Assembly (NCBI GenBank): GCA_024742285.1
Contig: JANSYR010000014.1
Coordinates: 1-64,000 of the forward strand
DNA: 64,000 bases
Direction: 5' to 3'
From: a bacterium
Lineage (GTDB): Bacteria > Myxococcota_A > UBA9160 > UBA4427
In this document: positions 4,547 to 27,826 of the stretch, piece by piece
Position numbering within the stretch: the stretch's first letter is position 1
Layout of the letters: each line of letters begins with the position of its first letter
The notes under the pieces: generated by a model
What the model was told of the DNA's origin: nothing
Databases searched by the model: none
The model's input: only the letters and a program-made list of their open reading frames with translations
Translations under genes and position numbers: made by a program

Positions 4547-5359
4547 ATGTTCCCCATCCTCCGAAGACATTGGGCGCTCTGGGCGGCCTGGACGGTCACC
4601 GCGTCGGTCCTCCTCTTCGCGAATCCAGCGATCGCGTTCGGCTGGCCCGAGCTCGTCGCCTGCGTCGGGTCGCTCGTGCTCTCGGCGGACCGGCGGACGC
4701 GTCGCGAGCTGCTGCTCGCGATCGGGCTCCCGGCGATCGGTCTGCTCGCCGTCGCCGATGCCCAGGACGCGTCCGTCTGGCGCCTCGTCATCGATTGGAC
4801 CGTCTTCATCGGCGCGGTCCTGCTCGGCGCGCGGGCCGTCGACGACCAGCACGAGCTCGAAGCGCTGGCCGGCCACCTGGCCCTCGGACCGGAGGCGGCC
4901 GCCTCGCTGCGCGAGCTCCACGCCGGGATCGAGTCGGAGATCGCCCGCGCGCGCCGTCACGACCGGAGCCTCCTCGTCCTCTCGCTCTCGCCCGAGCGCC
5001 GAGTCGGCGCCGAGGAGGGCGTGCACGAGAAGCTCCTCGCGGCCCGCGGCGTCCTGGAGACGGCGATGGTCCTGCGGGACGATCTCCACCGCTACGCGAA
5101 GGTCGCCGCGACCGAGGGCCGCGTGCTCTGCCTCGTGCCCGAGGCGGACCTCGATGCGGCGCCGGCGCTGGTCGAACGGCTCGCGAAGCGGGTCGAAGCG
5201 ACCCACGGACTCGTCCTCGAAGTCGGGGTCGCGGTCTTTCCCGGTGATGCACTGGTGGCCGACGACCTGATCGCCTTCGCCGACGATGCGAGGGAGCAGC
5301 GCGCGGCGCCTCGACCGGCGGCGGACGGGGCCGCGATCGCCCGCGACGCGTCGAGCTGA
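4547..5359 (+). CDS. Membrane-anchored protein with a degenerate GGDEF-like domain
   Basis: A 270-residue protein with two or three hydrophobic segments in the first 100 residues, then a soluble domain. That domain has the layout of a GGDEF fold: ARARRHDRSLLVLSL resembles its first strand region, and LEVGVAVFPGDALVADDLIAFADDA closely resembles its C-terminal end. No GGDEF or GGEEF signature is present, so diguanylate cyclase activity is unlikely. It lies 4 bases after the sugar transferase and overlaps the next glycosyltransferase by one base, so it is a fixed part of the operon. A role as a regulatory scaffold or nucleotide sensor is inferred. Confidence 0.7.
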   Translation: MFPILRRHWALWAAWTVTASVLLFANPAIAFGWPELVACVGSLVLSADRRTRRELLLAIGLPAIGLLAVADAQDASVWRLVIDWTVFIGAVLLGARAVDDQHELEALAGHLALGPEAAASLRELHAGIESEIARARRHDRSLLVLSLSPERRVGAEEGVHEKLLAARGVLETAMVLRDDLHRYAKVAATEGRVLCLVPEADLDAAPALVERLAKRVEATHGLVLEVGVAVFPGDALVADDLIAFADDAREQRAAPRPAADGAAIARDASS

Positions 5360-7787: not shown

Positions 7788-9130
7788 TCTACCTGACCGC
7801 GTTCATCCTCTTCCTGGTCTATCTGAACGCGCCGGCGGTGGCCGTGCGGGTCCACGGCGCGCCCTTCCTGTTCGCGGCGGCGGTCCCCATGGTCCTCGCG
7901 GTTCCGGTCGCCCATCGGGTGCTGATCCGCGGAGAGCCCCTTCGTTTCCCCCTCGTCCTCGCCGCAGCGGTGGCGCTCCTCGCCGTCCATACCGCGAGCG
8001 CGATCTTCTCCGCGCGCCCCTTCGAATCCCTCGATCAGGTCGAGACCTGGGCCCTCGAAGGCGTGCTCCTCGCGCTGCTGATCGCGAACGCGGTCCGCAC
8101 GCGGGACGAGGTGCGCGCGTCGGCGCTCGCCGTGGTGTCCGCCGGCGCCGTGATGGGCGCGATCGCGTGTCTCCAGCAGGCGCTCGGTCCCGCGGACTGG
8201 CCCTTCGCCGGCTTCGGCCAGCTCGACTCCGCGATCCGCGACGAGGGCGGACGCGTCGCCATCCGGCTCGCCGGTCCGATCGGCGAGACGAATCGCTTCG
8301 CGCAGATCATGGCCGTGCTCCTCCCGATCGGGACCGGGCTCGCGCTCGCGTCCCGGGGCTTCGCCCGGGTGGCGGCCTGGGCCGCGGTCGCCCTGATTGC
8401 CGCGGGCATGGCCTTCGCGTTCTCCCGCGGCGTGATCGTCGCGCTGGGTCTGGCCGTCCCCGTCGCCCTCGCGATCGGCATGCTGCGCTGGCGGCAGCTC
8501 GTCCTCGCCGGGCTCGTCGGCCTCGTCATGATCGCGGCGATGCCGCACTACGCCGAGCGCGTCCTCTCCATCGGGACGACGATCGCGCAGACGATCGGTC
8601 TCGAGCCCACGGGCATCCGCAACGCCGACGGTGCCGTCCGCGGACGCCTCACCGAGATGAAGTCGGCGGGTCTGCTCTTCCTCGAGTACCCGGTCCTCGG
8701 CGCCGGCCCGGGCATGGCCCCCTACGCCTACGAACGGCACGCCGGGGTCGTCGGCGGCAAGGTCCGCGCCGGGACGCGCCGCAGCCACAACCTCTATCTC
8801 CAGCTCGCCTCGGAGACCGGGATCATCGGCCTCGCCGCCTTCGGCTTCGTCGTCCTGGCCTCCTTCCGCGAGCTCGAGCGCGCCCGCCGGCGCTTCCTTT
8901 CGAACGATCGCGCACTCTGGGGGATCGTCTGCGGCCTCGAGCTCGCCCTCGTGATCTCGCTGACGAGCAGCCTCTTCCTGCATGCCGCCTACGTCCGTTA
9001 TTTCTGGGTCCTGATCGGACTGGCGACTGCGGCGAGCGCGCAGTCCGGGGCGCCCGCCCTCGCGGCGTTTCTCTCTCGCGCGCTTCGACAGACCGCCGAG
9101 CGGCTGCGCGCCGACGAGGCGCGGGCATGA
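7784..9130 (+). CDS. O-antigen ligase/polymerase-like membrane protein (Wzy_C type)
   Basis: A 448-residue protein with ten or more hydrophobic segments that would polymerise or ligate repeat units on the periplasmic side. The large periplasmic loop (about 260-350) ends in RSHNLYLQLASETGIIGL, a typical Wzy/WaaL motif with the conserved histidine, and FAFSRGVIVAL carries the usual conserved arginine. The GTG start overlaps the previous TGA. Polymerase is favoured over ligase because a flippase gene follows directly. Confidence 0.85.
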   Translation: MIYLTAFILFLVYLNAPAVAVRVHGAPFLFAAAVPMVLAVPVAHRVLIRGEPLRFPLVLAAAVALLAVHTASAIFSARPFESLDQVETWALEGVLLALLIANAVRTRDEVRASALAVVSAGAVMGAIACLQQALGPADWPFAGFGQLDSAIRDEGGRVAIRLAGPIGETNRFAQIMAVLLPIGTGLALASRGFARVAAWAAVALIAAGMAFAFSRGVIVALGLAVPVALAIGMLRWRQLVLAGLVGLVMIAAMPHYAERVLSIGTTIAQTIGLEPTGIRNADGAVRGRLTEMKSAGLLFLEYPVLGAGPGMAPYAYERHAGVVGGKVRAGTRRSHNLYLQLASETGIIGLAAFGFVVLASFRELERARRRFLSNDRALWGIVCGLELALVISLTSSLFLHAAYVRYFWVLIGLATAASAQSGAPALAAFLSRALRQTAERLRADEARA

Positions 9131-10659
9131 GCGATTCGCCCTCGCCCTCGCCCTCGCGTACGGCGACGTCGAAGCAGCTGCGCGGCTCGAGCCTCCTGCT
9201 CGTCGGAAGGCTGCTCTCGAAGCTCGTGAACTTCGGCGTCCAGGTCGCGATCGTGCGGCTCCTCAGCAAGGACGATTTCGGGGTCTTCGCCTATGGCCTG
9301 GCCCTCGTGCTCGCGGGTGAGCTGATCGTGAAGGCGGGCCTCGGTCGCGGGGCGAATCGTTTCGTGCCCTACCACGCCGAGCGGGGCGATCGCGAAGAGG
9401 TCATGGGGATCCTCGCGCTCGTGACGAGCGTGATCGTCGGACTCGGCCTCGCCGGCTTTGCCGTCCTGTGGTCGGTGGCGGACCTCGGCCTCGCGGGCAT
9501 GCCGACCGGCGAGCAGATCGGGGTCGTGCTGGTGCTCGCCTGGCTCGCGCCGGTGGGCGCCCTCGACACGATCGGGATCCAGACCCTGGCCTGCTTCGCG
9601 CGGCCCCGGGAGATCCTCGTCCGCAAGCACGTCCTCGGTCCTGCGCTGCGTGCGGCCGCCGTTCTCTTCGTCTTCGTCACGGGTGGGAACGTCGTCGATC
9701 TCGCGGTCGCCTATCTCGCGGGCGGCGTGATCGGTCTCGGCCTGTGTCTGCACCTGGCACTCCGACAGCTGGCCGCCCACGGCTTCCTCGCCGTCTCCCC
9801 GCGCGCGTGGCGCGTGCCGTGGCAGCCGCTGCTGCGCTTCTCGCTCCCCTTGATCTCCCAGGACGCCGTCTTCATCGTCCTCACCTTCGTGACGACGTCC
9901 CTGCTGATGGCGAGCGCCGGCGCCGAGGGCGTCGCGACCCTGCGCGCGGTCGTTCCGGCGGCGGCGCTGATCGGCCTGGTCGTGCAGAGCTTCGGCATGC
10001 TCTACATGCCGACCGCCATGCGGCTGCACGCCCAGGACGAGCGGGCGGGACTCCTCGAACACCACTGGCGCTCGGCGGCCTGGGTCACGGTCCTCTCGTT
10101 TCCGCTCTTCGGCCTGACCTTCGCCGTCGCGCCAGCGCTCGTGCCCGTCCTGCTCGGAGACGCGTACGCCGAGTCCGCGCGGATCCTCGCCGTGCTGGCG
10201 GTCGGTCACTACGTTTCGGTGTGCATGGCGTTCAACTCCGATGCGCTCCAGGTCTTCGCGCGGATCCGCGGTCTCGTCGCCGTCGACGTTGCGATGATGA
10301 TCCTCGGGGCGAGTCTGGCCTTCCTCCTGTGCCCGGAATACGGTGCCCTCGGCGCGGCGATTGCGATGAGCGTGTCCCGGGTGGTCGGTGCCTTCGCGCG
10401 GCACTTCCTGCTCTCGCGGACGCCCGGGATGGAGCGCATTCCGTCGGGTCAGCGCGTGGTCTGGGCCAAGGTGGCCCTCGCGACGGCGGCGGCGGTGGCG
10501 ATCGGCTGGCTCTGGCAGCCGCCCTTCGTCGTGCAGGTCGCGGCGCTCGCGATCCTCGGCCTCGCGCTGCTCCGTTCGACGGCGCCGACGCTCGACCTGA
10601 CCGGGTCCTTCCCCGAGCTGAACCGTCTTCCCTTCTTCGCGCGCCTGGTGGGCGTGTGA
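9127..10659 (+). CDS. Polysaccharide flippase (Wzx/MATE-like)
   Basis: A 510-residue protein with about 12-14 membrane segments. It starts with a family-typical amphipathic stretch (KQLRGSSLLLVGRLLSKLVNFG) leading to AIVRLLSKDDFGVFAYG. It should move lipid-linked repeat units across the inner membrane. The ATG overlaps the polymerase stop. The last 24 bases, including the TGA stop, form the first part of a 42-bp tandem repeat that extends into the next intergenic stretch. Confidence 0.9.
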   Translation: MSDSPSPSPSRTATSKQLRGSSLLLVGRLLSKLVNFGVQVAIVRLLSKDDFGVFAYGLALVLAGELIVKAGLGRGANRFVPYHAERGDREEVMGILALVTSVIVGLGLAGFAVLWSVADLGLAGMPTGEQIGVVLVLAWLAPVGALDTIGIQTLACFARPREILVRKHVLGPALRAAAVLFVFVTGGNVVDLAVAYLAGGVIGLGLCLHLALRQLAAHGFLAVSPRAWRVPWQPLLRFSLPLISQDAVFIVLTFVTTSLLMASAGAEGVATLRAVVPAAALIGLVVQSFGMLYMPTAMRLHAQDERAGLLEHHWRSAAWVTVLSFPLFGLTFAVAPALVPVLLGDAYAESARILAVLAVGHYVSVCMAFNSDALQVFARIRGLVAVDVAMMILGASLAFLLCPEYGALGAAIAMSVSRVVGAFARHFLLSRTPGMERIPSGQRVVWAKVALATAAAVAIGWLWQPPFVVQVAALAILGLALLRSTAPTLDLTGSFPELNRLPFFARLVGV

Positions 10660-10761
10660 TTCGGGCACTGCACGCGCTTCGCGCGCCTGGTGGGCGTGTG
10701 GTTCGGGCACTGCACGCGCTTCGCGCGCCTGGTGGGCGTGTGGTTCGGGCACTGCACGCGC
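10636..10761 (+). repeat. Three tandem 42-bp repeats over the 3' end of the flippase gene
   Basis: Copies lie at 10636-10677, 10678-10719 and 10720-10761. Copies 2 and 3 are identical. Copy 1 differs at one base only: position 10659 is A, giving the flippase stop TGA, whereas the matching base at 10701 and 10743 is G, giving TGG. The array therefore begins inside the gene and ends just before the next gene. The unit is a multiple of three, and each copy carries a GTG that could serve as a start codon. Confidence 0.97.
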
Positions 10762-10778
10762 GATGGATGGGCGCGTGA
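10656..10778 (+). CDS. Possible repeat-encoded 40-residue mini-ORF between flippase and lyase genes
   Basis: A short frame made almost entirely of the 42-bp repeat, encoding the unit VVRALHALRAPGGR in tandem and ending RWMGA. Its GTG start overlaps the flippase stop as GTGA, and its own TGA overlaps a GTG at 10775 that is in frame with the downstream lyase-like gene. It thus chains the two genes with the same coupling used throughout the operon. It may be a translated basic peptide, a device to carry ribosomes across the repeats, or chance. No family is recognisable. Confidence 0.35.
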   Translation: MIRALHALRAPGGRVVRALHALRAPGGRVVRALHARWMGA

Positions 10779-11896
10779 TCCGCGCCGCCCTTGCGCGGGC
10801 CCTCGGGGTGGCGATCCTCGTCGCTTGCCTGATGGTCGGCGTGGCGACTGCGTTCGGTAGCGCGCAGCCCACGCGCGAGGCGAAGTCCGGCGTCTGGCTC
10901 TCCGCCGAGGAGCTCGCGGCGCTGCCGACCTCGGGCCCGGCCTGGGAAGCGCTTCGGCGCGCGGCGCAGTCGCCCACGAACCGCCCCGACCTGTCGGACC
11001 AGGACGATGCGACGAACGTGCGGGTGCTCGCCAAGGCGCTCGTGGCGGCGCGGACCGGCGACGAGGACCTGCGCCGCGAGGTCGTGCGCGCGCTCGAGCG
11101 CGCACGGGGGACCGAGCGGGGAGCGAGTGTCCTCGCCGTGGCCCGCGAGCTGATCGCCTACGTGGTCGCCGCGGATCTGATCGGCCTCGACGGCCCGGAC
11201 CGGGCCGCGTTCGTCGCCTGGCTCGAAGACGTCCGCGATCGCGAGTTCCATCACCGGACGTTGCGCAGCACCCACGAGGATCGACCGAACAACTGGGGCA
11301 CCCACGCCGGGGCCTCGCGGCTCGCGGTCGCGATCTACCTCGGGGACCAGGACGAGATCGCCCGGGCGGCCTGGGTCTTCCGGGGCTGGGTCGGCGAGAC
11401 CCGCGGCTGGCACGGCTTCGAGTTCGGTCGCCTCTGGTGGCAGTCGAGCTATCTCTGGCGCTACGGCATCAACCCCGCCGGCGCAACGTATCGCGGACAC
11501 TCGATCGACGGCGTCCTTCCGGACGACCAGCGGCGTGGCGGCCCCTTCACCTGGCCGCCCCCGAAAGAGAACTACGTCTACGAGGCGCTCCAGGGGGCGG
11601 TCGTTCAGGCGGCGCTGCTCTCGCGCGCCGGCTACGACGCCTGGGAGTGGGGCGATCGCGCGATCCTGCGCGCCTTCCGCTGGCTCCACGACGAGGCGTC
11701 CTTCCCTGCGGTGGGCGACGACACCTGGCTCCCGCACATCGTGAACCGCATCTACGGCACGTCCTTCCCGGCCCCCTCGCCGTCGCGGCCCGGGAAGGGG
11801 ATCGGGTTCAGCGACTGGACTCACGCGAACCCCGTCGAGCCGCCCGTTGCGGCGCCGGTCGCGGCGAAGGAATCGCTCAGCCCTTCAGGTGACTGA
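10775..11896 (+). CDS. Secreted alginate-lyase-like protein
   Basis: A 373-residue protein from the GTG at 10775, or 377 from an in-frame ATG at 10763. It has a signal peptide (IRAALARALGVAILVACLMVGVATAF) and an all-alpha catalytic region like the alginate lyase superfamily, including the diagnostic RPNNWGTHAG segment with an Asn/His pair and a later GWHGFEFGRLWWQ. Lyases or hydrolases of this kind commonly sit at the end of exopolysaccharide operons and trim the polymer in the periplasm. The substrate need not be alginate. Its stop overlaps the convergent membrane protein gene by about 20 bases. Confidence 0.8.
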   Translation: MIRAALARALGVAILVACLMVGVATAFGSAQPTREAKSGVWLSAEELAALPTSGPAWEALRRAAQSPTNRPDLSDQDDATNVRVLAKALVAARTGDEDLRREVVRALERARGTERGASVLAVARELIAYVVAADLIGLDGPDRAAFVAWLEDVRDREFHHRTLRSTHEDRPNNWGTHAGASRLAVAIYLGDQDEIARAAWVFRGWVGETRGWHGFEFGRLWWQSSYLWRYGINPAGATYRGHSIDGVLPDDQRRGGPFTWPPPKENYVYEALQGAVVQAALLSRAGYDAWEWGDRAILRAFRWLHDEASFPAVGDDTWLPHIVNRIYGTSFPAPSPSRPGKGIGFSDWTHANPVEPPVAAPVAAKESLSPSGD

Positions 11897-27220: not shown

Positions 27221-27684
27221 GTCCGCGCCTGCGCCGTGCGCTGCTGGGCATCGTCGCTGCGGTCGCGCTGGCGATCGCGCAGCAGGCGGGGTGGATCGGC
27301 GGCGACGCGGCGCCTTCGTCCGCGCCCGTCGCGGCGGCGCCGCATGCGGAAGGCGGAAACGCCGCGCTCGAGCGCGCCCTCGAGGCCCGCGCGTCCGGGG
27401 TCATGATGACCGTCGATGCGCGGGTCGTGAAGGTCCTGCCCGACGATCTCGACGGTTCCCGTCACCAGCGCTTCCTGCTCGACGTCGGTCGCGGCCGGAC
27501 GGTCCTCGTCGCCCACAACATCGATCTCGCCGAGCGGGTTCCCCTCGATCGCCAGGACACGGTCCGGATCCGCGGCCAGTTCGAGTGGAACGACAAGGGC
27601 GGCGTCCTGCACTGGACCCACCACGATCCGCGTGGCCGGCACCCCGGCGGCTGGATCGAGCACGCGGGGCGCCGCTTCGAGTAG
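27217..27684 (+). CDS. Exported DUF3465 family protein
   Basis: A 155-residue protein with an N-terminal signal or anchor (RALLGIVAAVALAIA) and a DUF3465 domain. Recognisable family segments are DDLDGSRHQRFLLDV, VAHNIDLAERVPL, FEWNDKGGVLHWTHHDP and GGWIEH. The function of DUF3465 is unknown; its conserved histidines and tryptophans suggest an OB-like ligand-binding barrel. The GTG start overlaps the stop of the HerA-like ATPase gene, so the two are coupled. The last 15 bases, with the TAG stop, are the start of a 38-bp tandem repeat. Confidence 0.85.
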   Translation: MSPRLRRALLGIVAAVALAIAQQAGWIGGDAAPSSAPVAAAPHAEGGNAALERALEARASGVMMTVDARVVKVLPDDLDGSRHQRFLLDVGRGRTVLVAHNIDLAERVPLDRQDTVRIRGQFEWNDKGGVLHWTHHDPRGRHPGGWIEHAGRRFE

Positions 27685-27783
27685 CCGCTCGCGCGCCGCG
27701 AGGCCGGCGCCGCTTCGAGTCGCTGCTCGCGCGCCGCGAGGCCGGCGCCGCTTCGAGTCGCTGCTCGCGCGCCGCGAGACCGG
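27670..27783 (+). repeat. Three tandem 38-bp repeats over the 3' end of the DUF3465 gene
   Basis: Copies lie at 27670-27707, 27708-27745 and 27746-27783. Copy 1 contains the gene's GAG TAG ending; the matching positions in copies 2 and 3 read GAG TCG. Apart from that A-to-C change, copies 1 and 2 differ at one other base, and copies 2 and 3 differ at one base near the end. The unit is not a multiple of three. Confidence 0.96.
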
Positions 27784-27826
27784 CTACGGTCGGGCGGACG
27801 TCGGGAGCAGCGAGGAGCAGGTGAAC

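Follow-up and report, generated by a model that had tools for sequence, protein, structure and literature searches.

Overlaps of the NTGA kind, in which the stop codon of one gene shares bases with the start codon of the next, couple translation by termination–reinitiation (Huber et al. 2019, PMC6728339; 2023, PMC10666635). Reporter work has shown that short overlaps couple tightly, whereas re-initiation is nearly lost across gaps of about 20 nt (PMC10666635). In the MIRU repeats, a mini-ORF coupled to its neighbor allows the insertion to be carried within an operon almost without effect (Supply et al. 1997, per PMC12548453). Beyond MIRU, we found no direct precedent in the open-access literature for the tandem duplication of overlapping stop/start sites. 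Here we describe a tandem array of a 42-bp unit that separates a flippase gene from the alginate-lyase-like gene next to it, in a bacterial DNA stretch of 64,000 nucleotides (the window). In our reading, to which we give a probability of roughly four in five, the array arose recently, and at this locus alone, by a tandem duplication of the 4-bp flippase/lyase stop/start junction; the duplication was tolerated, and the mini-ORF crossing the array is a by-product.

The array and its bridging frame

The genes around the array follow the order sugar transferase (PF02397), unassigned gene, two glycosyltransferases, O-antigen ligase (PF04932), flippase and alginate-lyase-like gene, and form an exopolysaccharide operon. 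From position 4547 onward, neighbors overlap by 1, 4, 4, and 4 bp, including the 4-bp ATGA (9127–9130) shared by the ligase and flippase genes, and the flippase and lyase are the sole separated pair in this run. Flippase orthologues in four congeners are 55–88% identical.

Tandem Repeats Finder reports a period of 42 with 3.0 copies and a 98% match at 10635–10761 (Table 1). Pairwise, the three copies differ by 1, 1, and 0 bases. The only variable base is an A/G at 10659, 10701, and 10743, with A in copy 1 and G in copies 2 and 3, so that the flippase TGA (10657–10659) reads TGG in the later copies. Copies so nearly identical at such a length are not a product of chance. A preliminary description of the locus had already recognized three 42-bp copies whose single difference is the stop codon, and this is what we see, with the array beginning one base earlier, at 10635. 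That description also pointed out that an A-to-G change at 10659 would extend the flippase. This is true as frame arithmetic, the next stop lying at 10860, and we saw no sign that such an extension is of importance. Decoding of TGA as Trp, which would give a flippase with three FARLVGVWFGHCTR repeats, was rejected because the flippases of relatives have a stop at the same place.

Table 1 Features of the flippase–lyase junction and examples of the dispersed hairpin element
Feature	Position	Strand	Remarks
Flippase (polysaccharide biosynthesis protein)	9127–10659	+	Pfam PF01943 (1e-9) and PF13440
Copy 1 of the 42-bp unit	10635–10676	+	Includes flippase stop TGA 10657–10659 and junction J1, GTGA 10656–10659
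Copy 2 of the 42-bp unit	10677–10718	+	TGG replaces TGA
Copy 3 of the 42-bp unit	10719–10760	+	Same sequence as copy 2
Bridging mini-ORF	10656–10778	+	40 codons; VIRALHALRAPGGRVVRALHALRAPGGRVVRALHARWMGA, then stop
Degenerate fourth junction copy (J4)	10754–10795	+	GTGA 10775–10778; contains the orthologous lyase start, as aligned
Alginate-lyase-like protein	10775–11896	+	Pfam PF05426 (6.8e-13); orthologous start GTG 10775, alternative ATG 10763
Hairpin element, own genome	L036:8467–8537; L031:9131–9204		
Hairpin element, own genome	G000:C2:121673–121775; G000:C3:178907–178998; G000:C3:53428–53512		

GTGA occurs at 10656–10659 and again at 10775–10778, 119 bp apart. The frame opened by GTG 10656 runs for 40 codons and closes at TGA 10776–10778, in keeping with the earlier claim that a 40-residue frame joins the GTGA of the flippase stop to a GTGA in the lyase frame. 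Among random 40-codon frames in the window 70% are open, and the open state of this one is unremarkable. The mini-ORF has poor, non-coding codon usage, with a codon score of −10.7 in sum and a GC3 of 0.625; the flippase scores about +0.3 per codon. A Pfam search gave a sub-threshold match to UBA_HYPK alone (16.3 bits, cut-off 27), and the mini-ORF was rejected as a real gene on this result and the negative codon score. A structured RNA at the array was likewise rejected (fold z-score −0.87, no Rfam match).

The junction in relatives

We compared nine genomes of the genus, the present one included. The lyase is present in five of them, and the flippase adjoins it in all five. In each of the other four, the flippase stop and lyase start overlap by 4 bp, as GTGA in G003 and G004 and as ATGA in G007 and G008. 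The 4-bp overlap recurs in two MAG contigs (L039 and L045), and in a third (L041) the two genes closely abut. Six of the seven relatives that have the pair therefore show the direct overlap, and all seven lack a tandem array at the junction. The comparison with related genomes proposed in the preliminary description thus gives a direct 4-bp overlap as the ancestral state. L045 is a Pseudomonadaceae MAG and L041 a Gammaproteobacteria MAG; the occurrence of the pair under other class or phylum labels suggests either that the pair was transferred or that the contigs were misbinned.

The flippase C terminus, FARLVGV-stop, agrees with the FARLVG(A/V)-stop of the relatives. Alignment with G003 holds through the end of the flippase to J1 (10656), where similarity is lost, and resumes at J4 (10775) into the lyase; upstream of J4 it fades within about 15–20 bp. 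Read from GTG 10775 (VIR..., to PTR), the lyase N terminus aligns with that of G003 across 34 residues without a gap, and 14 bp, GGCGCGTGATCCGC, are common to J4 and the G003 junction. By these alignments, the first GTGA is the orthologous flippase end and the second the orthologous lyase start. Because the ends match relatives at J1 and J4, the one ancestral GTGA now flanks a 119-bp insert on either side.

The second GTGA lies 35 bp from the junction of copy 3, within a fourth copy at 10754–10795 that was overlooked in the preliminary description. J4 is identical to the 42-bp unit at 26 of 42 positions, and the 403 other GTGA-anchored sites in the window (both strands, copy 1 aside) reach 22 at most. 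At only 62% identity, the case for J4 as a probable duplicate draws on its position and the orthology of the lyase start, and not on sequence alone. Most plausibly, J4 is either the original junction or an old copy, and would have diverged after its left half stopped encoding flippase. The lyase-like ORF has, in the frame of GTG 10775, a further possible start at ATG 10763. The lyase could start there instead, and this is a point against the duplicated-junction explanation.

Origin of the array

Ancestrally, one GTGA served as both flippase stop and lyase start. Parting the two genes while keeping both intact requires a GTGA for each, so that the NTGA must be copied, presumably by replication slippage or unequal exchange. 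The resulting insert of 119 bp (42 + 42 + 35) automatically opens with a start codon overlapping the flippase stop and closes with a stop codon overlapping the lyase start. Its length leaves a remainder of 2 on division by 3 and stops are scarce in GC-rich DNA, so the 40-codon mini-ORF bridges both ends. Ribosomes finishing the flippase could most likely re-start on the mini-ORF and then on the lyase. Coupling would be reduced, not abolished, and the duplication would be tolerated with a near-neutral fate, the mini-ORF having no function of its own.

We took 112 real 4-bp overlaps from the own genome and simulated, for each, one tandem duplication of 20–120 bp spanning it. A bridging mini-ORF resulted in 33% of cases; in 31% the downstream gene was extended in frame, and 36% gave neither outcome. 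Where the length left a remainder of 2 on division by 3, 99% bridged. In the sampled 1.26 Mb of the own genome, 18 of 532 same-strand gene pairs that do not overlap are joined by a bridging mini-ORF, whatever its length. Since bridging arises in about a third of simulated duplications and open frames are cheap, selection is not needed to account for a conserved hand-over. The preliminary description had proposed that ribosome hand-over was preserved, or selected to be preserved. The first part stands insofar as both mini-ORF ends lie on NTGA overlaps within a tightly packed operon, where hand-over is possible; selection is unsupported in view of the ancestral overlap, the simulated one-third bridging, and the poor codon usage.

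We therefore consider it unlikely that the mini-ORF is itself selected, with copy number and frame kept to maintain or tune flippase–lyase coupling as a variable-number device. The overlap is conserved in relatives, so coupling may matter; the frame connects the two junctions exactly; and a G-rich stretch ahead of each GTG offers weak anti-SD pairing (−5.4 to −6.0 kcal/mol). These energies are ordinary, however, as a quarter of random sites reach −5.7 or lower. The codon usage is non-coding, random duplications and existing gene pairs yield bridging frames anyway, and the arrangement is found in one genome only. The bolder proposal that a copy-number-variable junction array is a self-made translational relay setting the flippase-to-lyase ratio is very improbable; were it true, overlapping operon junctions would be expandable into adjustable relays.

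It is also quite improbable that the array is an assembly artefact and that the true copy number is lower, perhaps one. The source genome is a draft of about 6.5 Mb in 56 contigs, probably metagenome-assembled, which leaves room for such an error. But copy 1 is unlike copies 2 and 3, a single short read could span the 126-bp array, the contig carrying it is 197 kb long, and many comparable arrays with differing copies occur in the own genome. Even with one copy, the two GTGA sites would stay 35 bp apart.

We examined how such arrays are placed genome-wide, in 1.26 Mb of 6.55 Mb, with gene calls from a finder of our own that locates starts only approximately. Of the 19 strongest tandem arrays outside genes, 16 touch a stop codon, where random placement predicts 22%, and 2 touch a start codon, where it predicts 26%. 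The 42-bp array belongs to a common class of stop-anchored arrays in its own genome, and it is the only one among the 26 strongest to reach both a stop and a start. The class comprises several different unit families. Another array in the window, at 27668–27784 (3 × 38 bp), carries the stop TAG in copy 1 only.

A dispersed hairpin element underlies some of the stop-anchored arrays, though not the 42-bp array. The element has the consensus C-TRR-TCCTCCGCC-TGCGGGCGCTC-GGCGG and lies in the sense orientation directly after stop codons. Of 26 matches to its core in the 1.26 Mb, 25 fall outside genes, and 0.5 matches are expected in all. Eleven lie exactly 9 nt past the stop, and most others are later copies in tandem arrays. 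The stem covaries and the 11-nt loop is invariant. Exact 17-mers number 74 in the own genome, 65 in G003, and 12 in G004, with none in the other six congeners and none for the reversed control. The single locus searched against Rfam gave no match. The element looks like an undescribed REP-like family; RAYT-type mobilization was rejected, as the Y1 transposase (PF01797) had no match in the genomes that carry the hairpin. That the 119-bp insert is a dispersed MIRU-type mobile element targeting stop/start sites can practically be dismissed: it has the anatomy of MIRU, with a mini-ORF overlapping both neighbors by 4 bp, and the own genome does contain dispersed stop-anchored repeats, but the unit has no match beyond its three local copies in the own genome or eight congeners, and it consists of local flippase end and junction sequence that is single-copy in relatives.

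Comparison with known systems

Under the duplicated junction that we favor, the array is a clean before/after example of an overlapping gene pair being pulled apart. Bridging mini-ORFs that form without selection in about one-third of events call for caution in assigning function to coupled mini-ORFs, and MIRU-like arrangements could have a simple origin in junction duplication. Depending on whether the lyase starts at ATG 10763 or at GTG 10775, 103 or 115 nt part it from the flippase, and without the mini-ORF the pair would therefore be expected to be uncoupled; with it, a two-step passage is possible, so that a bridging frame would be of consequence if the pair depends on coupling. By analogy with what is thought of mycobacterial MIRU mini-ORFs, this one may still couple translation, and such coupling, if true, would also explain how duplications of this kind survive in operons.

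Among described systems, termination–reinitiation pairs share the NTGA kind of overlap with the ancestral junction and with both ends of the mini-ORF. The 4- or 1-nt stop/start overlap typical of them is present directly in six relatives and here only by way of the mini-ORF. Unlike known pairs, this locus places two NTGA overlaps in series through a non-conserved mini-ORF, and coupling is predicted. The likeness to MIRU lies in a short tandem repeat between operon genes and a mini-ORF with −4 spacing to its neighbor, its 40 codons overlapping the flanking stop and start (GTGA 10656 and 10775). MIRU, however, is a dispersed and apparently mobile family, whereas the 42-bp unit occurs at one locus only among the own genome and eight congeners and derives from local genes; homology to mycobacterial MIRU is moot because the unit originates in the local flippase–lyase junction. 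With its head-to-tail, near-identical copies, the array resembles the bacterial minisatellites (VNTRs) that arise by slippage, and similar arrays are common in its own genome. Unlike an ordinary minisatellite, it spans the overlapping stop/start site of an operon.
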